A stretch of 64,000 nt of DNA from Nocardioides marmorisolisilvae (GTDB lineage Bacteria > Actinomycetota > Actinomycetes > Propionibacteriales > Nocardioidaceae): contig NZ_CP134227.1 of NCBI RefSeq assembly GCF_031656915.1, positions 2,790,001 to 2,854,000 on the forward strand, given 5' to 3'. The stretch's first letter is position 1. Each line of letters opens with the position of its first letter. A program made the position numbers and the translations under genes. Positions 1-56,000 of the stretch are shown in pieces. The notes under the pieces are model-generated. The model searched no databases. It saw nothing but the letters and a program-made list of their open reading frames with translations, and had not been told where the DNA came from.

Positions 1-469
1 CGCGCCGCTCCGCCTTCCCGACCCCACGCACCTCGAGACCGAAGGCGATGTTGTCGCGCACGGAGCGGTGTGGCAGCAATCCGAAGTTCTGGAAGACCAT
101 CGCCACGTGCTTGCGGCGCAGCTCTCGGAGCTGACTCTCGTCGGCGGTCGTGATCTCCCGCCCGCTCATCACCACAGACCCGGCGCTGGGCTCGATCAGC
201 CGGGTCAGCAGCCGGACCAGCGTCGACTTTCCCGAGCCCGACAGGCCCATCACCACGAACACCTCGCCCGGGGACACCTCGAAGGAGACGTCCTTGACCG
301 CCATCACGCAGCCGGTCTTGGCCTGCAGGTCCTTGCGGGACAGGTCGGCGTCGGGGGTGCCGATGATCGAGCCGGCCTTGTTGCCGAAGATCTTCCACAG
401 CGACTCGACCCGGAGCGCGGCGTCGCTGCTGTCCGGCGTCGCCGGAGCGGGGTGTAGGTCTGTGCTCAT
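1..469 (-). CDS. Glycine betaine/proline-type ABC transporter ATPase, partial (C-terminus off window)
   Basis: This is the ATP-binding subunit of an osmolyte ABC importer of the ProV/OpuAA type, which would energise uptake of glycine betaine or a similar quaternary amine at the membrane. The visible first ~156 residues contain Walker A GLSGSGKST and a Q-loop reading FQNFGLLPHRSV; the LSGGQ and Walker B parts lie beyond the left edge. The ATG at 467-469 overlaps the stop of the upstream choline dehydrogenase gene by one base (TGATG), so the two are probably translationally coupled. Being last in an operon after betaine aldehyde and choline dehydrogenases supports betaine or choline as substrate. 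The exact substrate cannot be read from the ATPase alone. Confidence 0.85.
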   Translation of the reverse strand, partial: MSTDLHPAPATPDSSDAALRVESLWKIFGNKAGSIIGTPDADLSRKDLQAKTGCVMAVKDVSFEVSPGEVFVVMGLSGSGKSTLVRLLTRLIEPSAGSVVMSGREITTADESQLRELRRKHVAMVFQNFGLLPHRSVRDNIAFGLEVRGVGKAERR

Positions 470-2208
470 CAGGCGTCTTCCTTCGTGGTGGGTACGCCGG
501 CGGCGTTGCGCTGGTCCCCTGGCGGGTAGAGCGGGGTGCTCTCGCGATAGCGGTAGTAGGGCACGTCGACCGCGGCCAGCGGCGTGTTTCCCGCAATCAG
601 GTCGGCCGCCTTCTCGGCAACCATCATCACGGGGGCGTAGATGTTGCCGTTGGTGACGTAGGGGAAGACAGAGGCGTCGACGACCCGCAGACCGTCGACT
701 CCGTGCACCCGCATCGTGTCCGGGTCGACCACGGACATCGGGTCCGCCTCGATCGAGCCCATCTTCGCCGTGCAGGAGGGGTGCAGCGCGGTCTCGGCAT
801 CGCGGGCGACCCAGTCGAGGATCTGCTCGTCGGTCTCCACGCTGGGCCCGGGAGAGAGCTCGCCGTCGTTGTACGGCGCGAACGCCGGCTGGGTGAGGAT
901 GTCGCGTGCGACCCGGATCGCCTCGACCCACTCCTTGCGGTCGGTCGGCGTGGACAGGTAGTTGAACTGCAGCGAGGGGTGCTCGCGCGGGTCGGTCGAG
1001 CGGATCAACACACGCCCGCGGGTGTCGGCGTACATCGGGCCGATGTGCACCTGGTAGCCGTGGCCCTCGGTGGGCGCGCTGCCGTCGTACCGGATCGCGA
1101 TCGGCAGGAAGTGGAACATCAGGTTCGGGTAGTCGACGTCCTCGTTGCTGCGCGCGAAGCCGCCGCCCTCGAAATGGTTCGTCGCGCCCAGGCCCCTGCG
1201 GTGGACAAGCCAGTCGTAGCCGATCTTCGGCCGGTTCCGCATCCGCAGGCCGGGCGCGATCGAGACCGGCTGCTTCGACGCGTACTGGATGTAGACCTCG
1301 AGGTGGTCCTGGAGGTTCTCCCCGACGCCGGGAAGGTCCGCGACGACGGGTACGCCGAGCGCGGACAGCGCGGCCGCGTTGCCCACACCGGAGAGCTGCA
1401 GCAACTGAGGCGTGTTGATCGCACCACCGCAGAGGATCACCTCGCCGGCGGCGACGGTACGGCGACCTCGGCCTGCGCGGCGGTACTCCACCCCGGTCGC
1501 CCGCTTGCCGTCGAAGACCACCCGGGTGGCCATCGCCAGCGTCTCGACCCGCAGGTTCTTCCGGTTCATCACGGGGTGGAGGTAGGCCCGCGCCGCCGAG
1601 AGCCTGCGGCCGCGGTAGACGTTGCGGTCGAACTTGGCGAAGCCCTCCTGGCGGTAGCCGTTCACGTCGTCGGTGAGGTGGTAGCCGGCCTGCTGCACGG
1701 CCTCGAAGAACGCTCCGAACAAGGGGTTGTCCGCCGGGCCTCGCTCGAGCTTCAACGGGCCGTCGCCGCCGCGCCACTCGTCGGCGCCGGCGAGGCAGGT
1801 CTCCATCCGCTTGAAGTAGGGCAGGCAGTGCAGGTAGTCCCACGACTCCATCCCCGGGTCGGCCGCCCAGCGCTGGTAGTCCAGCGGGTTGCCACGCTGG
1901 AAGATCATCCCGTTGATGCTGCTCGACCCACCGAGGACCTTGCCCCGGGCGTGGAAGACCCGGCGTCCGCCCATGTGCGGCTCCGGATCGCTCTCGTACT
2001 TCCAGTCGTACAGGCGGTTGCCGATCGGGAACGGCAGCGCGGCCGGCATGTGGATGAACGGGTCGATCCGGAAGTCGGACCGGCCGGCCTCCAGCACCAG
2101 CACGCTGGTGCCCGGATCGGCACTGAGCCGGTTGGCGAGCGCACAACCGGCAGATCCGCCCCCCACGATGACGTAGTCGTAGCGGCCGCCCGCGGTCCGC
2201 GCGCTCAC
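469..2208 (-). CDS. betA: Choline dehydrogenase-like GMC flavoprotein
   Basis: This 579-residue GMC oxidoreductase probably oxidises choline to betaine aldehyde using FAD. The N-terminus has the dinucleotide motif [11 protein letters not shown], followed by the GMC signature around GGSSSINGM. Near the C-terminus [10 protein letters not shown] carries the proposed catalytic His, and [20 protein letters not shown] is the usual closing motif of BetA proteins. Length is normal for the family (about 550-580). It overlaps the upstream aldehyde dehydrogenase gene by 4 bases and the downstream ABC ATPase gene by 1 base, giving a three-gene operon. GMC enzymes are hard to tell apart; the choline assignment rests mainly on this context. 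Confidence 0.85.
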
Positions 2209-3671
2209 GCGAACCAGCCCTGGGCCGCGGGGTCGATGTTGTGCCAGATGTGCTTGGTCTCCTGGTACTCATCGAGGCCGGCCCGGCCGAGCTCCCGGCC
2301 GATCCCGGACTGCTTGTAGCCGCCCCACTCCGCCTGCGGGACGTACGGGTGGTAGTCGTTGATCCAGACCGTCCCCATCCGCAACCGGGCGGCGACCCGT
2401 TGGGCCTTGCCGGCGTCCTGGGTCCAGACCGCACCCGCGAGCCCGTAGATGCTGTCGTTCGCGATGGCGACCGCCTCGTCCTCGTCGGTGAAGGTCTCCA
2501 CGGTCAGCACCGGCCCGAACGACTCGTCCTGGGTGACCGACATCGCGGACGAGCAGCGGTCGAGCACGGTGGGCGGGTAGTAGAACCCGTCGGCGAGCGC
2601 GGGGTCGTCGGGCCTAACGCCTCCACAGCGCAGGACCGCGCCCTCGGCGATCCCCGCGGCGACGTACCGCTCGACCTTGTCACGGTGCTGGGCGCTGGTC
2701 AGCGGGCCGGTCTGGGCCTTGTCGTCGAACGGGCCGCCGAGCCGGATCCGGCCGGCCCGCTCGACCACGGCGTCGACGAACTCGTCGTGGATCGACTCCT
2801 CGATCACCAGACGTGCACCGGCCGAGCAGACCTGGCCCGAGTGCAGGAAGACCGCGGCCAGGGCCAGGTCGAGGGCCGCTGCGCGGTCGGCGTCGGCGAA
2901 GACGACGTTGGGGTTCTTGCCGCCGAGCTCGAGGGCGACCCGTTTCACGGTTCCCGACGCGGCGGCCATGACCGCCTTGCCGGTAGCCAGACCACCGGTG
3001 AAGGAGACCAGGTCGACGCGCGGGTCCTCCGAGAGCGGAGCTCCGGCGTGCGGCCCGGAGCCGACCACCAGGTTCGCCACGCCAGCCGGCAGGCCGGCCT
3101 CGAGGAGCAGGCGGACCAGGTGGATCGCGGTGTGCGGGGTCAGCTCGCTGGGCTTGAGGACGAAGGTGTTTCCGGCGGCCAGGCACGGCGCCACCTTCCA
3201 TGACGCCTGAAGCAGCGGGTAGTTCCACGGGGTGATCAGCCCGCAGACGCCGACCGGCTCGCGCACGATCCGGCTGACCACGCCGGGGTTGCCCGTGTCG
3301 ACCACCCGTCCGGCGTGCTCCGCGGCCACGTGGCCGTAGTGGCGGAAGACGCCGACCACGTCCTCGATGTCGTACTCGCTCTCGACCAGCCGCTTACCGG
3401 TGTCCAGGGACTCCTCCCGCGCGAGCTGCGCCTTGTCGCGCACCAGCAGGTCGGCCACCCGGAGCAGCAGGTCTCCCCGCTGTCGCGCCGGAGTGCGCGG
3501 CCAGGGTCCCTCGTGGAAGGCTCGGTGCGCCGCGGCGATCGCCAGATCGGTGTCCTCCGGTCCGGCCTCGTCGATCTCCGCGACCAGGCTGCCGTCTGCG
3601 GGGCAGCGGATCTCTCGGCGACCGCCCGCACGGGCAGCCACCCAGCGTCCATCGTGGTGGATCTCCGGCAA
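2205..3671 (-). CDS. betB: Betaine aldehyde dehydrogenase (ALDH superfamily)
   Basis: A 488-residue NAD(P)-dependent aldehyde dehydrogenase, predicted to convert betaine aldehyde to glycine betaine. Visible are the cofactor-binding [12 protein letters not shown], the general-base Glu in LELGGKNPN, and the nucleophilic Cys in HSGQVCSAG. It is the first gene of the leftward betB-betA-ABC operon. The predicted start is a TTG at 3671; no better ATG lies nearby, and the protein begins close to the domain as BetB proteins do. The operator-like repeat at 3711-3746 sits about 40 bases upstream. Substrate is inferred from the neighbouring choline dehydrogenase; the ALDH fold itself is certain. Confidence 0.85.
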
Positions 3672-3710
3672 CCGCGAACCCCGCTCCTGTGTCGGTCGGT
3701 CCGGTCACGT

Positions 3711-3746
3711 GTTGCGCAGCACGCAACATGATGCCTGCAGCGCAAC
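3711..3746. promoter_or_regulatory. Candidate IclR operator upstream of betB
   Basis: Outer arms GTTGCGC (3711-3717) and GCGCAAC (3740-3746) form an inverted repeat with a 22-base spacer. A second CGCAAC (3722-3727) pairs with the left arm at closer range. The same outer arms with a 23-base spacer occur at 4621-4657, on the other side of the IclR gene. Its position just before betB suggests control of the betaine operon by that regulator, which is inferred. Confidence 0.55.
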
Positions 3747-4584: not shown

Positions 4585-4620
4585 GAGGGGAGAGTAGACG
4601 AACCTCGGCAGCGGTGGGCC

Positions 4621-4657
4621 GTTGCGCATCGCACGAAGTCGTCGCAGAATGCGCAAC
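4621..4657. promoter_or_regulatory. Candidate IclR operator between the IclR gene and purU
   Basis: A perfect 9-base inverted repeat, GTTGCGCAT (4621-4629) and ATGCGCAAC (4649-4657), lies in the 97-base divergent intergenic region. Outer arms and overall span (37 bases) match the element at 3711-3746. It probably is the binding site of the adjacent IclR protein. Confidence 0.6.
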
Positions 4658-4681: not shown

Positions 4682-5569
4682 ATGGTGCTGCCCGTATCCG
4701 CGAACGCCAGCAGTCCGGCCGGCGACTTCGTGCTCACCATCGTGTGCCCCGACCGGCCCGGGATCGTGCACGCCGTCTCGGGCTTCCTGACCGGCCACGG
4801 CGGCAACATCATCGAGAGCCAGCAGTACGGGGACCAGCTGGTCGACCGCTTCTTCATGCGGATCGACTTCGAGGTCGCCGACAGCGGCGTCACCGCCGAC
4901 CAACTCCGCGGGGAGTTCGCCGAGGTCGCGAGCCGGTTCGACATGCGGTTCGAGTTGTGGGACGCGGCCGCGCCGTACCGAACGCTCATCATGGTGTCCA
5001 AGCACCTGCACTGCCTCAACGACCTGCTGTTCCGGTACAGCACCCGCTCCCTGCAGATCGACATCCCCGCGGTGGTCTCCAACCACCCGGACGCCGAGCC
5101 GCTGGTCCGGTCCTACGGGATCCCGTTCCACCACGTCCCGGTCACCGCCGGCACCAAGGCGGAGGCCGAGGCCGAGGTCCTGCGTCTGGTCAAGGAGCAT
5201 GGCGTCCACCTGGTCGTGTTGGCGCGCTATATGCAGGTGCTCAGCGACGACCTGTGCCGCGAGCTGTCCGGCAAGGCGATCAACATCCACCACTCGTTCC
5301 TGCCCAGCTTCAAGGGCGCCAAGCCCTACCACCAGGCCTTCGAGCGGGGCGTCAAGCTCGTCGGCGCGACCGCGCACTACGTGACCGCCGACCTTGACGA
5401 GGGTCCGATCATCGAGCAGGACGTGATGCGGGTCGACCATGCGCACACCCAGGAGCAGCTCGTCTCCGCCGGCCGGGATGTCGAGGCCCAGGTGCTGTCC
5501 CGCGCCGTTCGCTGGCACTCGGAGTCACGGGTCCTGCTCAACGGCCATCGCACGGTGGTCTTCCGCTGA
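4682..5569 (+). CDS. purU: Formyltetrahydrofolate deformylase
   Basis: A 295-residue enzyme hydrolysing 10-formyl-THF to formate and THF. An N-terminal ACT-type domain (begins FVLTIVCPDRPGIVHAVSGF) precedes the formyltransferase-fold catalytic domain with NIHHSFLPSFKGAKPYHQAF and the active-site Asp in DEGPIIEQ. Length fits the family (about 280-300). The ATG at 4682 follows a purine-rich GAGGTG; an in-frame start at 4622 would begin inside the operator repeat. Its place between betaine genes and a corrinoid demethylation system suggests that it empties the one-carbon pool when methyl groups are oxidised, rather than serving purine synthesis. The formate produced could feed the formate dehydrogenase encoded at 53056-58216. 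Confidence 0.9.
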   Translation: MVLPVSANASSPAGDFVLTIVCPDRPGIVHAVSGFLTGHGGNIIESQQYGDQLVDRFFMRIDFEVADSGVTADQLRGEFAEVASRFDMRFELWDAAAPYRTLIMVSKHLHCLNDLLFRYSTRSLQIDIPAVVSNHPDAEPLVRSYGIPFHHVPVTAGTKAEAEAEVLRLVKEHGVHLVVLARYMQVLSDDLCRELSGKAINIHHSFLPSFKGAKPYHQAFERGVKLVGATAHYVTADLDEGPIIEQDVMRVDHAHTQEQLVSAGRDVEAQVLSRAVRWHSESRVLLNGHRTVVFR

Positions 5570-5591: not shown

Positions 5592-7031
5592 TCAGTCGCC
5601 GAGCTCCTTGCGGCGGCGTATGACGTACTCCTCCAGTTCGGCCCGCACTGCGTCGTCGAGCTCGGGAGCGACGTACTCCTCGAGCTTCTGCTTGTAGATC
5701 CTCTCGGCGCGCGCAGCGGCGTCCGTGCCTCCGTTGCGCATCCACCGCTCGTAGTTCTCCGAGGAGGAGAGCAGCGGGCGGTAGAAGCAGTCGCGGAACC
5801 GCTCCATGGTGTGCGCAGCGCCGAGGAAGTGGCCGCCGTGACCGACCTCCTCGTGGGCACCGAAGGCCATCGACGCCTCGTCTATCTCCAGGGGGGTGAA
5901 CTCGGCCTGCAGCATCTGCAGGATCTCGATGTCCACGACGAACTTCTCGTAGCCGGCGACCAGGCCGCCCTCGAGCCAGCCGGCGGAGTGCATCACCCAG
6001 TTGGCGCCGGCAAGGAACGTCGGCAGCATCGTCATCAGCGCCTCGTACCCGGCCTGGGCGTCGGGCACCTGCGAGGAGGTCAGCCCGCCGCCGGTGCGGA
6101 ACGGGAGCCCGAAGTGCCGGGCGATCTGGCCGGTGCAGAGCAGGCCGATCCCGGACTCCGGGGTGCCGAACGTGGGCGAGCCCGACTGCATGTCGATGTT
6201 GGACAGGAACGACCCGAAGATCACCGGGGTGCCGGGTCGGATCAGCTGAGAGAGCGCGATGCCCGACAGGGCCTCGGTGATCTGCTGGACCAGTGCCGCG
6301 GGGATCGTCACCGGTGACATCGCGCCCATCAGGATGAACGGCGTGAGGACCACGGGCTGGCCGGCGGCGGAGTACTCGAACTGGGCCTCGAGCATCCGGT
6401 CGTCCCAGCGCAGCGGCGAGTTGCAGTTGATCAGCGAGATCGACGCCGGCGTCCGCTCGATGTTCTCGCGACCGCCGAACAGGATCGAGCCCATCGCGAT
6501 GGTGTCCGCGGCATTGACGCCCGAGACCACGTTGCCCATGTAGACCTTGTCGGTCAACGTCTGCAGCGCGTAGGTCATGTCGAGATGCCGGCTGTCCAGC
6601 GGAGTGTCATTCGGCTCGCAGATCACCCCGCCCGCGGAGTCGAGGACCGGGAAGGACTGCGCCAGCTTGGTGAAGTTGCGGAAGTCGTCCATGGTCGCGT
6701 CCCGGCGTACCTCCCCCTGGCGGACGAACGGTGGACCGTAGACGGCACCGAACGCCATCGAATCGCCGCCGATGTGGATGCTGTGCTCGGGGTTGCGGGC
6801 CCGGACGTCGAACTCGGCCGGCGCCTTGGCCACCTGGGCGAGGACGAAGTCGGGGTCGAGGAAGACGGTGTTGTCCTCCACGCGCTGACCGGCCTGGCGG
6901 AACAGCTCGAGGGCGCGGTCGTCGAGGAACTCCACGCCGATCTCGGTGATCAGCTTGCGCCAGCCCTTGTCCAGGGTCGCCAGCGCCTCCTCGGAGAGGA
7001 TCTCGTAACGGGGCATCCGGTTGACGAACAT
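5592..7031 (-). CDS. MttB/MtgB-family quaternary amine:corrinoid methyltransferase
   Basis: A 479-residue member of the trimethylamine methyltransferase (MttB) superfamily. These TIM-barrel enzymes move a methyl group from a methylated amine to a Co(I) corrinoid protein. No in-frame amber codon is present, so this is the non-pyrrolysine branch, which includes glycine betaine (MtgB), proline betaine and carnitine methyltransferases. Adjacent choline and betaine genes favour glycine betaine as substrate, giving dimethylglycine. It is transcribed away from the second IclR gene, with a perfect palindrome between them. Cognate corrinoid protein, THF methyltransferase and activator are encoded just to the right. 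The substrate is inferred; family membership is clear from residues such as GAVYGPPFV and FGAHEEVGHGGHFLGA. Confidence 0.85.
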   Translation of the reverse strand: MFVNRMPRYEILSEEALATLDKGWRKLITEIGVEFLDDRALELFRQAGQRVEDNTVFLDPDFVLAQVAKAPAEFDVRARNPEHSIHIGGDSMAFGAVYGPPFVRQGEVRRDATMDDFRNFTKLAQSFPVLDSAGGVICEPNDTPLDSRHLDMTYALQTLTDKVYMGNVVSGVNAADTIAMGSILFGGRENIERTPASISLINCNSPLRWDDRMLEAQFEYSAAGQPVVLTPFILMGAMSPVTIPAALVQQITEALSGIALSQLIRPGTPVIFGSFLSNIDMQSGSPTFGTPESGIGLLCTGQIARHFGLPFRTGGGLTSSQVPDAQAGYEALMTMLPTFLAGANWVMHSAGWLEGGLVAGYEKFVVDIEILQMLQAEFTPLEIDEASMAFGAHEEVGHGGHFLGAAHTMERFRDCFYRPLLSSSENYERWMRNGGTDAAARAERIYKQKLEEYVAPELDDAVRAELEEYVIRRRKELGD

Positions 7032-7110
7032 CGGTCCTCCTGCGGCTCGCGGAATCGGCGGCGATCAGGCCACCGAAAGGCTTGACCCACCTCGCTCGGC
7101 ATCCTAGCCT

Positions 7111-7140
7111 CATGATATGGGCACCTAGTTCCATATCATG
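7111..7140. promoter_or_regulatory. Operator-like palindrome between mttB-like and IclR genes
   Basis: A perfect 10-base inverted repeat, CATGATATGG (7111-7120) and CCATATCATG (7131-7140), with a 10-base spacer in the 203-base divergent region. Arm centres are about two helical turns apart, as expected for a dimeric or tetrameric regulator. A TAGGAT box on the minus strand just to the left (7100-7105) could be the -10 of the methyltransferase promoter. The adjacent IclR protein is the likely ligand. Confidence 0.6.
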
Positions 7141-7234
7141 GAACTCTGGTCCAGCGTCCGGCGACAGCGGCAGACGCGCAAGCAGGCCCCAAGACAGGCC
7201 CAAGACAGACAGACCCAGAAACAGGAGGAGACCG

Positions 7235-8011
7235 GTGGCCAGGTCCGTCGCGCCGAACACGGGTACTCAAGCGATCGACCGCGCAGCCTTGCTGGTGGCG
7301 ACCGTGGTCCGCGCCGACGAGCCCCTGTCCTTCCTCGACCTGCACAGCGAGAGTGGGCTGCCCCGCTCGACCACCTCCCGGCTGCTGACCGCGCTCGAGC
7401 GCACCGAGCTGCTCGAGCGCAACAGCGCCGGCAGCTACGTCGCGGGGCCGCTGTTCTGGCTCTATGCCACCCGGCACGACCCGTGGGAGGAGCTGGTCCG
7501 GCTCGCCCGGCCCACGCTAGAGCGGATCGGCACCGAGACCGGTGAGACGGTCAACCTCTCCGTCGCCCGCGGCGAGCGGGTGGTCCAGGTCGCGCAGGTC
7601 GACTCGACCTATCTCCTCGGCACCCGCGACTGGACCGAGGTCGACGTGCCGGCGCACTGCTCGGCGCTCGGCAAGGTGCTGCTCGCGTACGGCGCTCTGG
7701 CGATGCCGACCGGGCCGCTCGAGCAGGTCACGCCGAGCACGATCACCGACCCCGCCACGCTGCGCCGGCAACTGGGTCAGGTCGTCCGCCGCGGCTACGC
7801 CAGCACGGTGGACGAGCTCGAGATCGGGCTCACCGGCATCGGTGCGCCGGTCCGCGGCAGTGGCGGTGAGGTCATCGCGGCACTGGGCGTCTCGGGCCCC
7901 AACCCGCGGCTGGAGGAGCGGCTCGACGAGGTCGGCCGGTTGTTGAGTGACCGAGGCGAGCAGCTTTCCGGGCTGCTCCGTCGGCGAACCCGAAAGGAAG
8001 GCGTTGCATGA
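7235..8011 (+). CDS. IclR-family regulator of the corrinoid methyl-transfer operon
   Basis: A 258-residue IclR-type regulator, paralogous to the one at 3811-4584 but clearly different. The N-terminal helix-turn-helix reads SESGLPRSTTSRLLTALE; the ligand domain contains TGETVNLSVARGERVVQV, PAHCSALGKVLLAYG and the closing RRGYASTVDELEIGLTGIG. The GTG at 7235 was chosen because GGAGG stands six bases upstream and the domain begins soon after; an ATG 51 codons earlier would lie in the palindrome region. It heads an operon with the corrinoid protein gene (ATGA overlap at 8008) and probably represses itself and the divergent methyltransferase through the 7111-7140 palindrome. Confidence 0.85.
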   Translation: MARSVAPNTGTQAIDRAALLVATVVRADEPLSFLDLHSESGLPRSTTSRLLTALERTELLERNSAGSYVAGPLFWLYATRHDPWEELVRLARPTLERIGTETGETVNLSVARGERVVQVAQVDSTYLLGTRDWTEVDVPAHCSALGKVLLAYGALAMPTGPLEQVTPSTITDPATLRRQLGQVVRRGYASTVDELEIGLTGIGAPVRGSGGEVIAALGVSGPNPRLEERLDEVGRLLSDRGEQLSGLLRRRTRKEGVA

Positions 8012-8673
8012 CACCCGAGGAGATTCTGCAAGGCCTGTACGACGACACGCTGGTGGGCAACGCGCCCCATGTGCTCGAGCTGACCCATGAGGGGCTGGCC
8101 CTGAACATGGAGCCGCAGACCCTGCTCTTCGACGCCCTGATCCCCTCGCTCGAGGAGGTGGGCGCCCGCTTCGAGCGTGGTGACTTCTTCGTTCCGGAGA
8201 TGCTGATTGCCGGCCGCGCGATGGCCGGCGCGATGGAGGTGCTCCGACCCCTGCTCGCCGAGACCGGCGTCGAGACCATCGGCAAGTTCGTGATGGGAAC
8301 CGTGAAGGGCGACGTGCACGACATCGGCAAGAACCTGGTCAACATCATGCTCGAGGGAGCCGGCTTCGAGGTCATCGACCTCGGGGTCCAGGTCGCTCCC
8401 GAGAAGTTCGTCGCGGCCATCGAGGAGCACCAGCCCGACATCGTCGGTTTCTCGGCGTTCCTGACCACCACCATGCCGATGTTCAAGGCCAACATGAACG
8501 CCCTTGAGAAGGGCGGCCTGCGCGATCAGGTGATCGTGATGGTCGGCGGAGCCCCCGTCACCCAGGAGTACGCCGATGCGGTCGGTGCCGACGGCTACGC
8601 AGCCGACGCCTCAGCGACCGTCAAGAAGGCCAAGGCTCTCCTCAAGGAGAAGCGCGCCAAGGTTCTCGCATGA
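8008..8673 (+). CDS. Corrinoid (B12-binding) methyl-carrier protein, MtgC/MttC type
   Basis: A 221-residue methyl carrier. Residues ~1-90 form the helical cap domain typical of MtaC/MttC/MtgC proteins, and the rest is the Rossmann B12 domain. The signature GDVHDIGKN places the cobalt-binding His at residue 104 (D102, H104, G107); VGFSAFLTTTM and MVGGAPVTQEYADAVGADGY complete the corrinoid pocket. It accepts the methyl group from the MttB-family enzyme and passes it to the THF methyltransferase encoded next. Start overlaps the IclR stop and its own stop overlaps the next start (ATGA both times), so expression is tightly coupled. Confidence 0.92.
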   Translation: MTPEEILQGLYDDTLVGNAPHVLELTHEGLALNMEPQTLLFDALIPSLEEVGARFERGDFFVPEMLIAGRAMAGAMEVLRPLLAETGVETIGKFVMGTVKGDVHDIGKNLVNIMLEGAGFEVIDLGVQVAPEKFVAAIEEHQPDIVGFSAFLTTTMPMFKANMNALEKGGLRDQVIVMVGGAPVTQEYADAVGADGYAADASATVKKAKALLKEKRAKVLA

Positions 8674-9569
8674 GTGGTCCGTTCAACGCCCCGCACCTGG
8701 AGACGGTGCTGAGGTCAGCGACCCAGCAGGTGGTGATCGGTCACGACACCCGCTTCTGCCTGATCGGTGAGCGCATCAACCCCACCGGCCGGCGGATCTT
8801 CCAGGAGCAGCTCAAGGCCGGCGACCTCTCTGCCATCGAGCGGGACGTGAAGGCCCAGGTCGAGGGCGGAGCCGACGTACTCGACATCAACATGGGCGTC
8901 CCACTGACCGACGAGGCCGAGCTCCTCGCCAAGGCGATCACGTTGGTGCAGGCGCTCAGCGACAAGCCGATCTGCATCGACTCCTCGGTGGTGGAAGCCC
9001 TCGAGGCCGGACTCTCGGCGTACCAGGGAAGGGCGTTGGTCAACTCGATCACCGCGGAGGACGAGCGGATGGAGCAGGTGCTTCCGCTGGTCAAGAAGTA
9101 CGACGCCGCCGTGATTGCCCTCCCGAACGACGCGGACGAGATCCCGATGGAGGTCGAGAAGCGGATCACCCTGACCCGCAAGATCATCGAGGTCGCCACC
9201 AAGGAGTACGGCATCGCTGCCGCGGATATCGTGATCGACCCGCTCGCGATGCCCATCGGCGCGGACTCCCAGATGGTCAACACCACCTTGGAGACGATGC
9301 GACGCATCCGTGACGAGTTCGGCGTGAACATGACCTGTGGCGCGTCCAATGTGTCGTTCGGGATGCCGGGTCGGCCAGCGCTGGGTGCAGCCTTCCTGCC
9401 GATGGCGATGACCGCCGGCCTGACCAGCGCGATCATGGACGCTCGCAGTCCGCAGATCGTCGAGGCGGTCAAGGCCGCCGACCTGATGCTCGGTCACGAC
9501 GAGTGGGGCGGAGCCTGGATCGCCGCGCACCGGGCGCGGCAGGCGGCCGAGACCGCGGCCACCTCGTGA
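8670..9569 (+). CDS. Methylcorrinoid:tetrahydrofolate methyltransferase (MtgA-like)
   Basis: A 299-residue pterin-binding TIM barrel related to MtgA, AcsE and the methyl-THF domain of methionine synthase. Motifs include GERINPTGRR near the N-terminus, GADVLDINMGVPL, PICIDSSVVEALEAGL and the late NMTCGASNVSFGMPGR. It would transfer the methyl group from the corrinoid protein to THF, producing 5-methyl-THF, or run in reverse. Start overlaps the preceding stop by 4 bases. Together with the MttB-like and corrinoid proteins it completes the three-component methyl transfer found for betaine in anaerobes such as Desulfitobacterium. The physiological direction here (demethylation) is inferred from the catabolic context. 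Confidence 0.9.
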   Translation: MSGPFNAPHLETVLRSATQQVVIGHDTRFCLIGERINPTGRRIFQEQLKAGDLSAIERDVKAQVEGGADVLDINMGVPLTDEAELLAKAITLVQALSDKPICIDSSVVEALEAGLSAYQGRALVNSITAEDERMEQVLPLVKKYDAAVIALPNDADEIPMEVEKRITLTRKIIEVATKEYGIAAADIVIDPLAMPIGADSQMVNTTLETMRRIRDEFGVNMTCGASNVSFGMPGRPALGAAFLPMAMTAGLTSAIMDARSPQIVEAVKAADLMLGHDEWGGAWIAAHRARQAAETAATS

Positions 9570-9576
9570 CCCCGCG

Positions 9577-11550
9577 ATGACCGACGGACCAGACTTCACC
9601 ATCGCCGACGTCGTCGACGTCGCCCGTGAGGGCCTGATCGAGCCTCCGGGCGCCGACCAGGCCGTCCACGACGGCACCGGGCGGGTCAACCTCGCCTTCA
9701 CCGTCATCACCGGGCCGGACTCGCCGCCGACCCAGCGCTCGGTGCGGGTGCCTCCCGGGGTGACCGTCTTCGACTCCGCCTCGTGGAACGGCATCGCGAT
9801 CGACTCCACCTGTGGTGGGCACGGCACCTGCCACAAGTGTCGGGTGCAGATCGCCGGCGAGGGCGTCCCGATCACCCGGCACGATGTACGCACGTTCAGT
9901 CCGGAGCAGCTCGACGACGGCTGGCGGCTGGCCTGTCTGGTCAACGCGACCCGCGACCTCGCCGTCCAGGTGCCGCCTCTGACCACCCGGCCGAAGGCTG
10001 CGACGGTCGGCGTCGGGCGGCAGGTGATCCTGCATCCCGCGATTCAGAAGCGGTACGTCGAGCTCGACGAGCCCACTCTGGCCGACCAACGCACCGACCT
10101 GGTTCGGCTGACCGACGCGATCACCGACCTCGAGCTGACCGCCGACCTGCACGTGCTGCGCCGGCTGCCCACGGTACTGCGCGCCGCCGACTTCAAGGTC
10201 ACCGCAGTGATCGTCGACGAGGACCTGATCGACGTGGAGCCGGGCGACACCACCTCGACCCGCTACGCGATCGCGTTCGACCTCGGCACCACCACGGTGG
10301 TGGCAACGCTGCTCGATGTCGGCACCGGCACACCGGTCGCCGTGGCGTCGATGCTCAACAAGCAGCAGCCGTTCGGTGGCGACGTGATCTCGCGGATCAG
10401 CGCGACCATGATGGACAAGGACACCCTCGGCCGGCTGCAGGAGGCCGCCGGCGCGACCCTCGCCGAGCTGGCGAGCGACGTGTGCCGCGAGGGCGGCGTC
10501 GATCCGGCCCAGGTCTATGAGGTGGCGATCGCGGGCAACGCGACCATGACCGCGCTCGCGCTCGGCATCGATCCCGAGCCGATCGGAGTCGCGCCGTTCG
10601 TGATGGCCACCAGCCAACCGCCGTCGGTGCTGGCCACCGACCTCGGGCTGAGCCTGCATCCGCGCGCTCGCGCCGTCTTCTTCCCCGCCCTCGGTGCGTA
10701 CGTCGGCGGAGACATCGTCGCGGGGATGCTGGCAACGGGCATGGACCGGGACAAGCGCACCCGGCTGTTCATCGACGTCGGTACCAACTGCGAGATCGTG
10801 CTCAGCGACGGCGACACGATCCTGTCCACCGCGGCGCCCGCTGGACCGGCCTTCGAGGGTGGCGCCATCCGCTGCGGCATGCGCGCCGCCGACGGTGCGA
10901 TCGAAGTCATCAAGGTCGACCCGGCCGCCGAGCCGGGCACGGACCCGGTGATCCTCGGGGTGATCGGCGACGTGGAGCCGCGCGGCCTGTGTGGCTCGGG
11001 CCTGGTCGACGCCGTGGCTGAGCTGGTCAGGGTCGGGCTGCTCGACGACTCGGGGCGCTTCATCTCTGAGGAAGCGGCCAAGGAGATCGCGCCGGCCATC
11101 GCCGATCGACTGACGAAGCTGGGCGAGGAGCGGGTCTTCCTGCTGCACCGACCCACACCCCACGCCGATCCCGCCGAGTGCGTGTACCTCTCGCAACGCG
11201 ACGTACGCGAGCTGCAGTTCGCCAAGGCGGCGATCTCCACCGGCTGGACATTGTTGCTCGAACAGCTCGGCCTGGAGCATCGCGACATCCAGCAGGTGCT
11301 CCTTGCCGGCTCCTTCGGCAGTTACCTCAGCCCCGCATCGGCAGTGCGGATCGGACTGGTCCCACGCCTGCCGGTGTTGCGAATCGTGGCGGCCGGGAAC
11401 GTCGCCGGCGAAGGCGCGAAGATGGCCCTGCTGTCGCTGCGCGAGCGCACCGGGGCGACGGCGTTGCTGGAGGAGGTGGCCTATGTCGAGCTCTCCGACC
11501 GCCCCGACTTCAACGACAAGTTCGTCGAGCAGCTCGCCTTCGGTGGCTGA
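9577..11550 (+). CDS. Corrinoid activation ferredoxin-ATPase (RACo/DUF4445 family)
   Basis: A 657-residue reductive activator that uses ATP and electrons to return accidentally oxidised Co(II) corrinoid to Co(I). After ~55 residues comes a plant-type 2Fe-2S domain with ligands C79, C85, C88 (CGGHGTCHKC) and C120 (ACLV). A linker and an ASKHA-fold ATPase follow, with IAFDLGTTTVVATLLD, GNATMTALAL, FIDVGTNCEIVLSDGD, AAPAGPAFEGGAI and CGSGLVDAVAEL. This is the 2Fe-2S type of activator (as in Carboxydothermus RACo), not the two-4Fe-4S RamA type. It lies seven bases after the THF methyltransferase. Its presence argues strongly that the upstream corrinoid protein cycles through Co(I) and needs repair in an oxic cell. 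Confidence 0.9.
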   Translation: MTDGPDFTIADVVDVAREGLIEPPGADQAVHDGTGRVNLAFTVITGPDSPPTQRSVRVPPGVTVFDSASWNGIAIDSTCGGHGTCHKCRVQIAGEGVPITRHDVRTFSPEQLDDGWRLACLVNATRDLAVQVPPLTTRPKAATVGVGRQVILHPAIQKRYVELDEPTLADQRTDLVRLTDAITDLELTADLHVLRRLPTVLRAADFKVTAVIVDEDLIDVEPGDTTSTRYAIAFDLGTTTVVATLLDVGTGTPVAVASMLNKQQPFGGDVISRISATMMDKDTLGRLQEAAGATLAELASDVCREGGVDPAQVYEVAIAGNATMTALALGIDPEPIGVAPFVMATSQPPSVLATDLGLSLHPRARAVFFPALGAYVGGDIVAGMLATGMDRDKRTRLFIDVGTNCEIVLSDGDTILSTAAPAGPAFEGGAIRCGMRAADGAIEVIKVDPAAEPGTDPVILGVIGDVEPRGLCGSGLVDAVAELVRVGLLDDSGRFISEEAAKEIAPAIADRLTKLGEERVFLLHRPTPHADPAECVYLSQRDVRELQFAKAAISTGWTLLLEQLGLEHRDIQQVLLAGSFGSYLSPASAVRIGLVPRLPVLRIVAAGNVAGEGAKMALLSLRERTGATALLEEVAYVELSDRPDFNDKFVEQLAFGG

Positions 11551-12151
11551 GGTGGGCCGCGTCGCCCTGATCGCCTGCGGCGCGCTGGCCCAGCCCGCCG
11601 CCGCGATCGCCGAACGACGTGGCTGGGCGATGGACGTGCATCCGCTCCCTCCCCTGCTGCACAACCAGCCGAAGCGGATCTCCGGTGAGGTGCGGGCACT
11701 CGCCGAGGTACTGCGCCCGCGCTACGCGAAGATCGTGATCGGGTACGCCGACTGCGGCACCTACGGTGCACTCGACGAGGTCTGTGCCGACCTGGGCCTC
11801 GAGCGACTGCCGGGGCTGCACTGCTACGACGTCTTCGGCGGTGCCTCCCGGCTGGAGAGGTTCTTCGCCGACCAGCCGGGCACCTATGTGCTCACCGACT
11901 TCCTGGTGCGCTCCTTCGCCCGCACCGTGGAGCGCGAGCTGGGCCTCGACCGCTATCCCGAGTTGCGCGACGACTACTTCGGCGCCTACACGCGGGCGGT
12001 GTGGCTGGCGCAGGAGCCGGGTGACGACGAGTTGGTGCAGCTGGCCCGAGCCGCCGCCGATCGGATGGGCCTGCCGCTGACCGTCGTACCCACCGGCGAC
12101 CGCGGCCTGGAGACCGCACTCGAGAGTCTGGTCCCGATCCAGGCTGGGTAG
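11543..12151 (+). CDS. DUF1638 protein associated with corrinoid methyl transfer
   Basis: About 202 residues, resembling the DUF1638 family: VALIACGALA near the start, HPLPPLLHNQPKRI, then YADCGTYGALDEVCAD and HCYDVFGG. Function is not established. DUF1638 genes are often found beside MttB-like methyltransferases and corrinoid activators, which fits this location. Start is either GTG at 11543, overlapping the activator stop, or GTG at 11552; the first is listed. The conserved Cys and His residues (C in IACG, YADCG, HCYD) could bind a metal or a cofactor, which is speculation. It is the last gene of the rightward operon. Confidence 0.75.
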   Translation: MAEVGRVALIACGALAQPAAAIAERRGWAMDVHPLPPLLHNQPKRISGEVRALAEVLRPRYAKIVIGYADCGTYGALDEVCADLGLERLPGLHCYDVFGGASRLERFFADQPGTYVLTDFLVRSFARTVERELGLDRYPELRDDYFGAYTRAVWLAQEPGDDELVQLARAAADRMGLPLTVVPTGDRGLETALESLVPIQAG

Positions 12152-12178
12152 CCCGCCAGGTCGTGCCGAGCCGGGCGA

Positions 12179-13024
12179 TCAGGCCTTGAGCCGCTCCAGC
12201 AGGTCGCTGCGCCAGGCCTCGGTCTCGGCGACCTGGTTGAAGGTGAAGACGTGCAGACCCTCGACCAGCGCCTCGGGCGGGGCGAGGACCGGTGCGCACT
12301 GCTCGAGGAAGCGCTCGCCGGTGAACCCACCGGGGGCCGCGAGCCGCAGGAAGGTGCCGCGGTGCTTCGAGAGGAACCGGGTGGACTCGCCCACCCCGAT
12401 CTTGGTGGCCATGTTGAGCAGCTTCGCCCGGTCGATCGGGCCGGGCATGCCCAGCAGCAGCGGCATCGTCACGCCGCGGCCGCGCATCCGCTTGATCCAG
12501 GCCCTGATCGCCGCCGGATCGAAGGTCAGGTTGCTCACCACGTGGGTGGCGTACTGCCGCTTGTCCCACATCGACTGCACCGTCAGGTCGTCGCTGATCG
12601 TCGGATGCGTCTCGGGATAGCCGGTCACGCCGACGTGCGAGAAGGGGTCGCCGAGCTCGTGCAGGTCGGCCAGCAGCGAGAACGCATCGGGGTAGTCACC
12701 GGCCGGCTCGGCATCGCCGCCGGGCACGAAGATCGATCGAATCCCCTTGCCAGTAAGGCGATCGCAGATCTCCGACAGCTCGGTGCGGTTGGTGACCATC
12801 CGCGCCGCGAGATGCGGGACCACGTCGTACCCGTGGCCGGTGAGACGTTCGGCCAGGTCGAAGGTCGACTCCAGGCCCTTGCCCGGGGATGCGGTGATCG
12901 TGACGACCCGCTCGATGGGCAGGTGGGTGAGCACCTTGTCCTCGGTGGAGGGGGTGGGCAGCACCTCGTAGCGGGCGTTCTCCAGCAGCCGGATCATCGC
13001 CGCCGTGGTCGCTTTGTTGCGCAT
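12179..13024 (-). CDS. Methylenetetrahydrofolate reductase-like protein
   Basis: A 281-residue protein of the MTHFR (MetF) TIM-barrel family. Recognisable stretches are ERVVTITASPGKGLEST (instead of the usual start with catalytic Glu), SIFVPGGDAEPAGDYPDAF and VTGYPETHP, followed by KRMRGRGVTMPLLLGMPG. In this setting it would oxidise the 5-methyl-THF made by demethylation to 5,10-methylene-THF. It is convergent with the corrinoid operon, with 27 bases between stops, so it is not co-transcribed. It is a divergent family member, shorter than E. coli MetF (about 296), with an atypical N-terminus, so a dedicated catabolic role or another electron partner is possible. Confidence 0.78.
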   Translation of the reverse strand: MRNKATTAAMIRLLENARYEVLPTPSTEDKVLTHLPIERVVTITASPGKGLESTFDLAERLTGHGYDVVPHLAARMVTNRTELSEICDRLTGKGIRSIFVPGGDAEPAGDYPDAFSLLADLHELGDPFSHVGVTGYPETHPTISDDLTVQSMWDKRQYATHVVSNLTFDPAAIRAWIKRMRGRGVTMPLLLGMPGPIDRAKLLNMATKIGVGESTRFLSKHRGTFLRLAAPGGFTGERFLEQCAPVLAPPEALVEGLHVFTFNQVAETEAWRSDLLERLKA

Positions 13025-13171
13025 TAAGGAACTCGTTTCGTGATGCGCACCAGTGTCGCGATCAGAGTACGCCGCCCGCGGGCGCAGGTACAGGCCTCGT
13101 TCGGCCCCGCCCGACGGGTCCTCCCGAGCGGAACTGCCGCGGCGACGCCGCGGCGTACGACACGTGGACGG

Positions 13172-51996: not shown

Positions 51997-52123
51997 CGAC
52001 GGTGAGCGTACGCCCGCACTTCCCGGCATGGAGGGCGAACGGCCCGGGTTCGAAATCCAGGGCACCGGGTACGACCCGCCAATCTCGGCGGCCACCCCGG
52101 GACGCTGAGAGGAGGAGGACACC

Positions 52124-53056
52124 GTGGCCCTGCGTGACCGCCTGTTGGCTCTGCACCGGCAGGGCCGCAGCTGGGAGGAGATCGGCGACGAGGCCCAGAT
52201 CCCCGCGGGCCAGGCCTACTTGATCGTGACCGGCCGACCTGCCGACGGCAGCGACGCCGTGGGACCCGAGTTCCTCTCCGAGCGGGGCGACCTGCTGATG
52301 CACGGCAGCCAGGCACTGTCGAACCCGCCCACCGAGGTGCCCACCGAGCACGAGGTCGTCGACCGCTGGCTCAAGGCTCGCGCCGCGGCGGACGGACCGA
52401 TGCAGGACGCGGCCCGACGGCGTACGGCGGAGCCGCCGCCGATCGATGACGACAGCGACTCCGACGACGTCGTGGACGTCCTGGGCCATCAGCACGGCCA
52501 GGTGAAGTTCCTGATGGAGCAGCTCGAGGCCATCCCCGGCGTACGCGTCGGTGGCTCCGAGGAGGACCAGCAGCGACGCGTCTCGATCGTCGACATGATG
52601 CGCGTCCGGCTCTCCCAGCACGAGTCGATGGAGGAGGCGCACTTCTGGCCCGCGGTCCGCGAGCATCTCGAGCAGGGTGAGGATCTGGCGGCCGGGGCCG
52701 AGGAGCAGGAGCAGCGCGGCAAGGACCTGCTCCAAGAACTCGACGGCAAGCCGGGCGGCGACGACGAGTTCGACGAGCTCGTCGAGCAGTTGGTGCTCGC
52801 GCTGCGCACCCACGTCGCCTACGAGGACACGGTGTTCTTGAAGGTCAAGGAGCAGATGCCCGACGACGTCCGGGCGAAGGTCGGCAGCACCATCAAGAAG
52901 AAGATCGCCAAGGCACCCACCCGCCCGCACCCACATGCGCCGGCCGGCACCGGCATGGCCGCGAAGGTGGCGGCGGCCGGCGCCGCACCGCTGGACAAGG
53001 CACGGGACGCGATGGGCGAGCGGCCCGCGAAGCGCAAGGGCAAGGAGGAGGAGTAG
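52124..53056 (+). CDS. Hemerythrin-domain protein of the formate dehydrogenase operon
   Basis: A 310-residue protein. Residues ~1-45 may form a small helix-turn-helix-like domain (LHRQGRSWEEIGDEAQIPAGQAYLIV). Residues ~115-240 form an HHE/hemerythrin fold with likely diiron ligands in LGHQHGQVKFLMEQL, LSQHESMEEAHFWPAVREHLE and RTHVAYEDTVFLKVKEQ. The C-terminus is Lys/Ala-rich and disordered. GTG at 52124 follows GAGGAGGAG. Its stop overlaps the GTG start of the formate dehydrogenase subunit by one base. It may sense or store O2 or protect the dehydrogenase, which is inferred from position. Confidence 0.82.
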   Translation: MALRDRLLALHRQGRSWEEIGDEAQIPAGQAYLIVTGRPADGSDAVGPEFLSERGDLLMHGSQALSNPPTEVPTEHEVVDRWLKARAAADGPMQDAARRRTAEPPPIDDDSDSDDVVDVLGHQHGQVKFLMEQLEAIPGVRVGGSEEDQQRRVSIVDMMRVRLSQHESMEEAHFWPAVREHLEQGEDLAAGAEEQEQRGKDLLQELDGKPGGDDEFDELVEQLVLALRTHVAYEDTVFLKVKEQMPDDVRAKVGSTIKKKIAKAPTRPHPHAPAGTGMAAKVAAAGAAPLDKARDAMGERPAKRKGKEEE

Positions 53057-56000
53057 TGGCGGTCTCGATCGGGTGGCCCGTGCTGGCCCAGTGGAAGGCG
53101 GGCGACCCGCTCGCCCGCGGCAAGGGCGCGAAGTCGCGGCGCTCCGCCGAGCTCCGGCCGCGCACCGCCACCGCGGACAAGGTCGTCAAGTCGATCTGTC
53201 CGTACTGCGGGGTGGGCTGCGCCCAGAACATCTACGTCAAGGACGACGAGATCGTGCAGATCGAGGGCGATCCTGACTCGCCGATCAGTCGTGGACGGCT
53301 CTGCCCGAAGGGCTCGGCCACCCTCGAGCTCGCCACCGGCCCGGCCCGGAAGTACCAGGTGCTGCACCGCAGTCCCGGGGCTGCCGACTGGGAGGAGATG
53401 AGTCTCGACGAGGCGATGGACCGGATCGCCGACCTGGTCATCGCCACCCGCCGCGACACCTGGCAGGAGGAGCACGAGGGGCGGCGTACCCACCGCACGA
53501 TGGGGATCGCCTCGCTCGGCGGGGCGACGCTGGACAACGAGGAGAACTACCTGATCAAGAAGCTGTTCACCTCGCTCGGGATCATCCAGGTCGAGAATCA
53601 GGCCCGGCTGTGCCACAGCGCCACCGTCGCCGGGTTGGGCACGTCGTTCGGCCGCGGCGGATCCACCACCGCGATGCAGGACCTGCAGAATTCCGATTGC
53701 ATCGTGATCGAGGGCTCGAACTTCGCCGAGGCGCACCCGGTCGGCTTCCAATGGGTGATGGAGGCGAAGGCCCGCGGCGCGACCCTCATCCACGTCGACC
53801 CCCGCTTCAGCCGGACCAGCGCGCTGGCCGACATCCACGTGCCGATCCGGGCCGGCTCCGACATCGCCTTCCTCGGCGGGATCATCAAGTACGTCCTGGA
53901 CAACGACCTGTGGTTCCACGAGTACGTCGTCAACTACACCAACGCCACCCACATCGTCGTGGAGGAGTTCGAGGACACCGAGGACCTCGACGGGCTGTTC
54001 TCGGGGCTGCACGAGGGCGAGCAGGCCTACGAGAACGACAACTGGCAGCTCGAGGGCGTCGAGCGTCGGTCCGAGGAGCGGCCTCACGACCAGGCCTACC
54101 GGGACGAGCTCGCCGCGGTGAAGAGCGCCGGGCACGCGGAGTCGCACGGCTCCGGCGGTGCCGGCATGCGCGGCCAGCCCGAGGACGACCCGACCCTGCA
54201 GCACCCGCGCTGCGTGCTCAACCTGCTGCGCCGCCACTACGCGCGCTACACCCCGCAGATGGTGCAGGACGTCTGCGGCATCCCGCCCGATCTGTTCGAG
54301 AAGGTCTGCCGGACCATCACCGACTCGTCCGGACCGGAGCGCACCACCGCGTTCGCCTATGCGGTCGGCTGGACCCAGCACACCACCGGCTCCCAGTTCA
54401 TCAAGGCGGCCGGCGTCCTCCAGCTGCTGCTGGGCAACATCGGCCGGCCCGGCGGTGGGATCCAGGCCCTGCGCGGGCACGCCAGCATCCAGGGCTCCAC
54501 GGACATGGCGACGCTGTTCAACCTGCTCCCCGGCTATCTGCCGATGCCGCACGCCTACCAGCACGGCAGTCTCGACGAGTACATCGAGGGCGAGCGTACC
54601 GAGAAGGGCTACTGGGCCGACTGCCGCGCCTACGCGGTCAGCCTGCTCAAGGCCTGGTTCGGCGAGCACGCACGAGAGGAGAACGACTACTGCTTCGACC
54701 ATCTGCCCAGGATCACCGGGAGCCACAGCACCTACGACACGACGATGCTGCAGCTTGACGGCACCTGCAAGGGCTTCTTCCTGCTCGGTGAGAACCCGGC
54801 TGTCGGCTCCGCGAACGCGAAGATGCAACGGATGGCGATGGCCAACCTCGACTGGCTGGTGGTCCGGGACTTCTCGCTGATCGAGTCGGCCACCTCCTGG
54901 AAGGACGGCCCGGAGATCGACAGCGGCGAGCTGGCGACCTCCGACATCGGCACCGAGGTGTTCTTCCTACCGGCGGCCTCGCACACCGAGAAGAACGGCA
55001 CGTTCACCAACGCGAACAGGCACGTGCAGTGGCACTTCGCCGCGAAGGAGCCGGACGGAGATGCCCGCAGCGAGCTGTGGTTCATGTACCACCTCGGCCG
55101 CATCATCCGCGAGAAGCTGGCCGGCTCCGCCGACCCGATCGACCGTGCGGTCCTGGACCTGACCTGGGACTACCCCGTCGAAGGCTCGATCGACGAGCCC
55201 AAGGCCGAGGCGGTGATCGCCGAGATCAACGGGTACGACGCCAAGGGCGCCCCGCTGGCGTCGTACGAACAGCTCAACGAGGACGGCTCGACCGCGTGCG
55301 GTGCCTGGATCTACTGCGGGGTGTACGCCGACGGCGTCAACCAGTCCGCGCGTCGCAAGCCCGCCACCGAGGACAACTGGCTCGGCATGGAGTGGTGCTG
55401 GGTGTGGCCGGCGAATCGACACATCCTCTACAACCGTGCCTCCGCCGACCCGGACGGCAAGCCGTGGAGCGAGAAGAAGGCGCTGGTCTGGTGGGACGAG
55501 GAGAAGGCGCTGTGGCAGGGCCACGACATCCCTGACTTCAGCGCCGCCAAGGGACCGCACTACCGTCCGCCGGCCGGCGCGACGCGGGCCGAAGCGCTCT
55601 CCGGCATCGACCCGTTCGTGATGCAGCCGGACGGCAAGGGCTGGCTCTACGTGCCGGCCGGTCTGGTCGACGGTCCGATGCCGACGCACTACGAGCCGCA
55701 GGAGTCACCGGTGCCCAACGGTCTCTACGCACAGCAGCGCGACCCGGTCCGGCAGCTCTACGCGCACGAGCACAACCGCTACCAGCCGAGCGGCGACGAC
55801 CCCGGTGCGGACGTGTTCCCCTACGTCGCCACGACGTACCGATTGACCGAGCACTTCACCGCTGGCGGGATGTCGCGCTGGTCGGCGTACCTCTCCGAGC
55901 TGCAGCCGGAGATGTTCTGCGAGGTCTCACCCGAGCTGGCGCGAGAGCGCGGCCTCGAGCACGGCGAGTGGGCCACGATCGTCACGGCACGCAACGCGAT

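Follow-up and report, generated by a model that had tools for sequence, protein, structure and literature searches.

A predicted corrinoid-dependent route for glycine betaine demethylation in the actinobacterium Nocardioides marmorisolisilvae

The genome of Nocardioides marmorisolisilvae (4.23 Mb, one contig) carries an island of genes whose products would move methyl groups by way of a corrinoid protein. We analysed a 64-kb stretch of this genome (the window). An earlier note on this DNA had listed six corrinoid components at 5592-13024: an MttB-family methyltransferase, a corrinoid protein, a tetrahydrofolate (THF) methyltransferase, a 2Fe-2S activator, a DUF1638 protein and a methylenetetrahydrofolate reductase (MTHFR)-like enzyme. 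All six are there, with matches far above chance in Pfam and NCBIfam profile searches judged against curated cut-offs. Here we argue that together they probably demethylate glycine betaine in the breakdown of choline.

Layout of the island

The note had called the island complete. The parts that it listed stand, but it omitted purU and iclR2, and the bet and ATP-binding cassette (ABC) transporter genes continue beyond the left edge of the window. The neighbours that it had named are also present: betA, betB, SURF1, an AlkB-type protein with a rubredoxin domain and an osmolyte ABC ATPase, the last cut by that edge. Within the window the island contains these features:

1..469, minus strand: choline/betaine ABC transporter ATPase gene, 5' part, the remainder lying left of the window (TIGR01186 proV, 372 bits, above cut-off)
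469..2208, minus strand: betA, choline dehydrogenase (TIGR01810, 842 bits, cut-off 732)
2205..3671, minus strand: betB, betaine-aldehyde dehydrogenase (NCBIfam gives TIGR01804 BADH as the best match, 601 bits, short of the 668.6 cut-off)
3707..3728: predicted IclR1-type operator upstream of betB, a near-palindrome with a weak score
3811..4584, minus strand: iclR1, IclR-family regulator (profile match; start codon from sequence reading)
4617..4638: predicted operator in the iclR1-purU interval
4682..5569, plus strand: purU, 10-formyl-THF deformylase (TIGR00655, 350 bits, above cut-off; ends from sequence reading)
5592..7031, minus strand: mttB/mtgB-like non-pyrrolysine methyltransferase, proposed glycine betaine:corrinoid methyltransferase (PF06253)
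7082..8011 (limits of the open reading frame), plus strand: iclR2, IclR-family regulator, first gene of the corrinoid operon
7128..7144: predicted IclR2 operator, the palindrome GTTCCA-N5-TGGAAC in the promoter from which mttB and iclR2 diverge
8008..8673, plus strand: mtgC, corrinoid-binding protein (PF02310 and PF02607; DVHDIG motif at residue 102)
8670..9569, plus strand: mtgD/mtgA-type methylcorrinoid:THF methyltransferase (PF00809, pterin-binding)
9577..11550, plus strand: raco, RACo/RamA-like 2Fe-2S ATP-dependent corrinoid activator (PF14574/PF17651/PF17650/PF00111)
11552..12151, plus strand: DUF1638 protein, likely corrinoid reactivation partner (DUF1638, 71.5 bits)
12179..13024, minus strand: MTHFR-like flavoprotein, proposed methyl-THF oxidation (PF02219)
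13012..13033 and 13034..13055: two weak predicted operator sites at the start of the MTHFR-like gene

The island's continuation to the left is covered by a separate locus, L103. There the bet operon runs leftward through the choline/betaine ABC ATPase, a permease and an OpuAC binding protein to a dimethylglycine dehydrogenase (DMGDH)-like enzyme with DAO and GCV_T domains, followed by the beta and alpha subunits of an electron transfer flavoprotein (ETF). The whole island, with the ETF alpha gene at one end and the MTHFR-like gene at the other, is about 21 kb long. The corrinoid operon is tightly packed: iclR2 overlaps mtgC, mtgC overlaps mtgD, raco starts 8 bases past mtgD, and the GTG start of the DUF1638 gene (11552) lies two bases past the raco stop. 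The true start of iclR2 is uncertain; it probably lies downstream of the palindrome and before 7271. The mttB gene is divergent from this operon and convergent with purU, whose family was assigned by comparison with other loci, and the MTHFR-like gene converges on the operon's end.

The methyltransferase and its corrinoid partners

What kind of enzyme does mttB encode? The protein matches PF06253 with 618 bits (cut-off 25), and its 274 bits against TIGR02369, the trimethylamine methyltransferase MttB, do not reach the equivalog cut-off of 525. A pyrrolysine enzyme is ruled out: the gene is a single uninterrupted frame with no in-frame stop, and an ordinary residue, Leu317, aligns with the X of 7xcl that marks the pyrrolysine position. 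The closest solved structure is 4yyc (438 bits). MtgB of Desulfitobacterium hafniense (DhMtgB; 2qne and 9yce) follows with 396 and 395 bits, and the pyrrolysine MttB scores 131 bits.

Four residues of DhMtgB, Y94, N199, R309 and H345, have been proposed as betaine ligands (PMC6855144); they sit one residue later in 9yce as numbered in print. The earlier note had named an active site with none of the residues conserved in MtgB as grounds against its reading. In our alignment all four residues are present, as Y98, N202, R312 and H348, and the reading passes this check. To survey relatives we drew on an MttB protein scan over genome contigs, which gave 346 stretches; our locus set consists of the best 80 of these, picked by closeness to the window MttB and totalling 1.505 Mb. 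The alignment holds 133 sequences: the window protein, three PDB chains and the MttB matches spanning at least about 330 residues from loci L003-L102, L107-L112 and L114-L133, shorter matches having been dropped. The combination YNRH occurs in the main copy of every one of the 80 loci, in 24 of the 49 other non-PDB sequences (window included) and in both 4yyc and DhMtgB. The pyrrolysine MttB has GCYY at these positions. Three paralogs with 56-58% identity, the second copy in L080 (18935-20482) and those in L122 and L132, have N or Q for Y98 and Q for H348, the L080 copy reading NNRQ; they are candidate enzymes for other substrates.

The partner proteins fit a corrinoid cycle. MtgC carries the cobalamin-binding motif DxHxxG (D102-H104-G107) within its B12-binding domain, as the note had read it. 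The RACo-type protein has 2Fe-2S, RACo linker, middle and ASKHA C-terminal domains. In 12 aligned DUF1638 proteins Y65-A-D-C-G-T, G88, H90-C91, T115-D-F-L and G131-L-D-R are invariant. A structure model of this protein is confident (mean predicted local distance difference test score, pLDDT, 90.2). A Foldseek search with the model found no convincing match (best E 8e-4 at a template modelling score of 0.27), and a profile search gave nothing better than E 0.22. We found no cobalamin riboswitch at the Rfam gathering threshold in the window and L103.

The MTHFR-like protein matches PF02219 with 36-37.7 bits. A normal MetF is encoded at 4.21 Mb in the same genome (299.7 bits), and a third, weak MTHFR-like protein lies outside the island near 2936097 (L106). 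The best solved relative of the island protein, by 114 bits to 33 for the next, is 7xg9, which we take to be the MTHFR of Sphingobium SYK-6. A review describes an MTHFR subfamily that prefers to oxidise methyl-THF and gives the Sphingobium SYK-6 enzyme as an example (PMC13001107, accessible text).

Conservation, other routes and predicted operators

The organism names of the 80 loci are actinobacterial in every case and include Nocardioides, Marmoricola, Pimelobacter, Mumia, Phycicoccus, Geodermatophilaceae, Kineosporia and Asanoa. The nearest named MttB relatives come from the first three, and the proteins of the first five loci are 89-92% identical. Gene presence was scored by tblastn (E at most 1e-15) in those 54 loci that reach 21 kb or more. 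Genes mtgC, mtgD, raco and DUF1638 are each found in all 54, and all but L094 and L102 have the MTHFR-like gene (52). The counts for further genes of the island are betB 43, betA 43, purU 42, the ABC ATPase 47 (44 at 50% identity or more), the permease 39 and the binding protein 23. Formyl-THF synthetase was found in 19, a BCCT transporter in 14 and a PF02574-type protein in 6. Since the two iclR queries match each other, only close matches were counted for these genes: iclR1 in 49 of 54 (at least 50% identity) and iclR2 in 53 (at least 45%). Across all 80 loci, many of them short, 77 have mtgC, 75 mtgD, 74 raco, 69 DUF1638 and 62 the MTHFR-like gene. In L114, whose genome is marked only as belonging to the same phylum, the genes mtgD, raco, mttB, mthfr and betA are co-oriented, and betA is 76.5% identical. 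A plasmid of Paracoccus methylovorus (p1; L107, 2228-10440) encodes an activator, a THF methyltransferase, an MTHFR, a DUF1638 protein, a B12-binding protein, an MttB and an MTHFR C-terminal-domain protein, with a creatininase gene and a spermidine/putrescine-type transporter near.

DUF1638 follows MttB closely through the family. Among 341 genomes PF06253 is found in 111 and DUF1638 in 109; 108 have both and 229 neither. Comparing the lists by eye left four discordant genomes, three with MttB alone (G056, G271, G278) and one with DUF1638 alone (G094). The Fisher p value of 1.8e-84 for this co-occurrence takes no account of relatedness. Across the phylum, sampled evenly (396 genomes, the window's own included), PF06253 occurs in 51.

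Could the organism demethylate betaine in another way? The earlier note had favoured corrinoid chemistry over the usual oxygenase and betaine-homocysteine methyltransferase (BHMT) routes, and the gene content of the genome bears this out as far as sequences can. There is one MttB. PF02574 occurs once, in an open frame of 1350 residues that has pterin and B12 modules alongside in the same orientation (L002); because this is a MetH-type frame, we find no separate BHMT and set that route aside. At E 0.001 the genome has no match to PF00848, the Rieske oxygenase alpha subunit; GbcA was thus not found, and the GbcAB route was likewise rejected. The GbcB model's cut-off of 500 is reached in none of the 341 family genomes, the best score in the window's own being 155.7 bits. 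GbcB-like reductases at 230-365 bits occur in 38 of the 341 and may be relatives of the oxygenase route; MttB accompanies them in 8 of the 38, against an expectation of about 12, which shows no clear complementarity. The co-location of betBA, ABC, DMGDH-like, ETF and purU genes adds to the case that choline is catabolised here through betaine demethylation.

Homologous modules serve methionine synthesis in the roseobacters Phaeobacter (PMC5764234) and Ruegeria (PMC12478193), according to the accessible text of both papers. The corrinoid and pterin proteins might thus mainly form a split methionine synthase to which MttB supplies additional methyl groups. A PF02574-type protein beside the cluster in 9 of the 80 loci speaks for this. 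The genome's own PF02574 domain sits in the MetH-like frame, however, and a check of 18 genomes found a PF02574 match in all and a MetH-sized frame (1184-1647 residues) in 17, the best frame in the remaining one (G739) having 472 residues. We therefore rejected a split methionine synthase as the main role of the island and consider a methionine-linked system very improbable. The nine loci with the adjoining, MtgE-like homocysteine-methyltransferase-type gene are L076, L079, L081, L082, L087, L090, L092, L095 and L099; eight of their nine genomes have a MetH-sized frame.

The island has two predicted operators. GTTCCA-N5-TGGAAC at 7128-7144 is the single exact match to this palindrome in the 64 kb. 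With up to three mismatches allowed, 19 matches are found where 15.7 are expected, no excess over chance, and our analysis uses the exact match alone. The exact core TTCCA-N5-TGGAA occurs 50 times in the 1.505 Mb of the 80 loci; 48 copies, in 47 loci, precede mttB by no more than 250 bases, and the remaining two precede it by 946 and 1272 bases.

The second motif, around GATACGCAAC, has 130 matches at threshold 12 in the 80 loci: 35 at betB, 26 at iclR1, 24 at the MTHFR-like gene, 20 at the DMGDH-like gene, 15 at purU, 4 each at BCCT and ABC ATPase genes, and 2 elsewhere. Ten column-permuted matrices gave 0 to 16 matches each, mostly elsewhere; the upstream zones make up 18.8% of the sequence. 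We also trained the motif on just 29 sites, all of them preceding betB, iclR1 or purU. At threshold 9 on both strands this held-out motif found 61 sites at the MTHFR-like gene, 26 at the DMGDH-like gene, 7 near corrinoid genes and 5 elsewhere. Counted by locus outside the training zones, it marked 43 of 62 MTHFR-like and 22 of 26 DMGDH-like genes at threshold 9, and 20 of 62 and 19 of 26 at threshold 13. In the island the iclR1/purU site scores 14.4, the mttB palindrome region 9.7 and the DMGDH-like site in L103 20.7. By position, IclR1 would bind the second motif and IclR2 the palindrome.

That the mttB/corrinoid promoter has its own palindrome, unlike the motif of the bet genes, may be read in another way: the island could be an anaerobic pathway in a facultative or microaerobic host, used under oxygen limitation alone. 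Co(I) is sensitive to oxygen, which favours this idea. The genome has two COX1 genes, which indicate aerobic respiration; taking the methyl group to formate and oxidising dimethylglycine through ETF need an electron acceptor; and the aerobe Ruegeria pomeroyi runs a homologous route (PMC12478193, accessible text). Restriction to low oxygen is thus highly unlikely in our judgement. CobN is also encoded, so the organism's own B12 synthesis would be consistent with its gene content.

Beyond the island the window holds the following features:

13172-13810: TetR-family regulator beside the AlkB-type gene
14007-15500: fatty-acid-desaturase-family (AlkB-type) protein fused to a rubredoxin domain
47658-48398: SURF1
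49407-52122: a sulfatase gene, then a convergent formylglycine-generating-enzyme-like gene
53056..58216, plus strand: formate dehydrogenase-N-type genes, away from the island (NF041513, 1904 bits), with subunits alpha 53056-56310, beta 56307-57209 and NrfD-like 57131-58216
59407-60717: phage-type integrase gene

The sulfatase (49407-51047) was considered as betC; it is not claimed as such because its choline-sulfatase score of 93.7 does not reach the cut-off of 433. A foreign origin of the island was also rejected: GC content shows no break, and mttB is present in 111 of the 341 family genomes.

Proposed pathway and comparison with known systems

The best reading of the island, to which we give a probability of roughly 0.84, is an aerobic, corrinoid-dependent demethylation of glycine betaine dedicated to choline and betaine catabolism. 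We base it on gene content, conserved order, co-occurrence, conserved motifs, active-site residues and the lack of detectable rival routes in the genome. Choline would be imported by the ABC transporter and oxidised to glycine betaine by BetA and BetB. The MttB-like protein would transfer a methyl group from glycine betaine to Co(I)-MtgC, leaving dimethylglycine and CH3-Co(III)-MtgC; MtgD would pass it on to THF, giving CH3-THF and restoring Co(I). The MTHFR-like flavoprotein may then oxidise CH3-THF to CH2-THF, which would proceed to formyl-THF. PurU would release formate from this, and formate dehydrogenase would convert it to CO2; the distant genes at 53056-58216 are a possible formate sink. 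Dimethylglycine would be oxidised by the FAD- and THF-dependent DMGDH-like enzyme with ETF. Co(I) that O2 or side reactions had oxidised to Co(II) would be regenerated by the RACo-type ATPase, probably with DUF1638. The two IclR regulators, responding to presumed effectors, would control the whole through the two operators.

Several observations weigh against this reading. Of the window's own operator sites, those at betB (10.5) and the MTHFR-like gene (9.7 and 9.0) are weak, and position 38039, which has no known link to the island, scores higher, at 11.3. MtgC falls below both NCBIfam models (200.9 of 370 bits for NF047996, 160.2 of 310 for NF047995). The DMGDH-like enzyme was found in 21 of the 54 long loci, a count that may be low in that the gene often could lie beyond the fetched stretch. 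The conservation counts come from loci selected by their similarity to the window protein. In the phylum sample no genome among the 50 others with PF06253 carries a mark of same class or nearer, and the trait is therefore patchy in the class. The remaining points concern the substrate. In the accessible part of PMC6855144 the DhMtgB ligands were proposed from docking, not mutagenesis. The pocket motif ILQYF of DhMtgB is WLEGG in the window protein, with I350 replaced by W352 and F354 by G356. Finally, we built a FastTree tree with local support values from 71 of the aligned sequences, a set without MtpB, MtcB, MtyB and the two Ruegeria proteins. The window protein lies in a group of 34 sequences extending to L102 (support 0.956), and the node joining this group to 4yyc (0.904) holds 60 sequences, many lacking the Y. 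DhMtgB lies outside that node (0.999). To judge by this tree, a plain transfer of an anaerobic MtgB does not account for the window protein. With DhMtgB outside and Y-less paralogs inside, the substrate inference is carried by the ligands and the gene context rather than by the tree.

The MttB-like protein might then act on choline, proline betaine, carnitine or a similar compound, with the bet genes serving quaternary-amine catabolism in general. The accessible text of PMC8604678 reports that MtcB and MtyB, 53% identical, act on carnitine and gamma-butyrobetaine. The aromatic pocket is unlike that of DhMtgB, and around the Paracoccus methylovorus set, near its transporter and creatininase genes, the annotation of the stretch that we viewed lists no bet genes. 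Against this, the genome has a single MttB and no alternative first-step enzyme for betaine that we could find, betBA accompany the set in 43 of the 54 long loci, betB and the DMGDH-like gene have an operator motif in common, and YNRH is kept in all 80 main copies and absent from the three paralogs. A different substrate is unlikely on this evidence, though less so than the other alternatives; glycine betaine is the one we prefer.

A broader claim is more tentative, and we put it a little short of even odds: that in aerobic Actinomycetota (Nocardioidaceae and others) a stand-alone corrinoid demethylase, apart from methionine synthesis, is the sole first step of betaine breakdown, with a dedicated RACo-DUF1638 pair that sustains its function in air and a two-operator IclR regulon. 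If so, the regulon would couple choline oxidation to methyl-THF oxidation, and the corrinoid activator could not do without DUF1638 as its partner. Soil is rich in glycine betaine from plants and fungi. Chemistry once tied to strict anaerobes would have been carried into actinobacteria common there, and B12 demand would be added to soil betaine turnover. The island also makes the role of DUF1638 directly testable.

How does the island compare with known systems? The novelty implied by the earlier note was too high, because a cobalamin-dependent demethylation of betaine by aerobic bacteria had already appeared in print in 2025 (Mausz et al., PMC12478193). The accessible text of that paper describes MtgBCD in Ruegeria pomeroyi and other marine bacteria, and also in Sinorhizobium meliloti. 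In Ruegeria mtgC and mtgD are needed for growth on betaine and for methionine synthesis; two MttB-family proteins rise on betaine; and RamA, DUF1638 and MetF2 increase on N-osmolytes. MetH is missing in about 70% (108/156) of the marine genomes with MtgBCD, and Actinomycetota account for 5% of mtgC reads. This is therefore not a new kind of system. Judged by protein family, not by orthology to the Ruegeria proteins, the two have in common an MttB-family protein, a corrinoid protein, a THF methyltransferase, a RamA-like protein, DUF1638, a MetF paralog to oxidise methyl-THF, downstream oxidation of dimethylglycine and an aerobic host. The Paracoccus methylovorus proteins are about 48% (MtgC), 45% (MtgD), 32% (RACo) and 41% (DUF1638) identical to those of the island.

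Other systems resemble it in part. MtgBCA of D. hafniense also has a non-pyrrolysine MttB-type enzyme, about 41% identical and with the four proposed ligands, but its host is anaerobic, its aromatic pocket differs, and the window MttB is closer to 4yyc. Phaeobacter inhibens has the same B12 reactivation pair, a RamA-like protein and DUF1638, linked to a split methionine synthase (Price et al. 2018, PMC5764234); the accessible text makes no specific proposal for the role of DUF1638. There the pair serves methionine synthesis, whereas here it would serve catabolism. The reverse-direction MTHFR of Sphingobium SYK-6 has a LigM-type demethylase as its partner (PMC13001107, accessible text), where the island enzyme would have MtgD.

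The literature that we searched, of which coverage is partial and the subscription part mostly outside, yielded no other paper describing an actinobacterial form. As far as it shows, what is new is that form, its separation from methionine synthesis and the predicted two-operator regulon. Unlike in Ruegeria, where according to PMC12478193 (accessible text) mtgC and mtgD also make methionine, the mtgCD of the island would not be needed as a methionine synthase, as a MetH-type frame is present and there is no separate MtgE; and the parts stand in one island with two IclR genes, an arrangement kept in relatives. N. marmorisolisilvae, whose genome has a single mttB, a separate MetH-type frame and neither an oxygenase nor a BHMT route that we could detect, offers a cleaner test of this chemistry than Ruegeria does.

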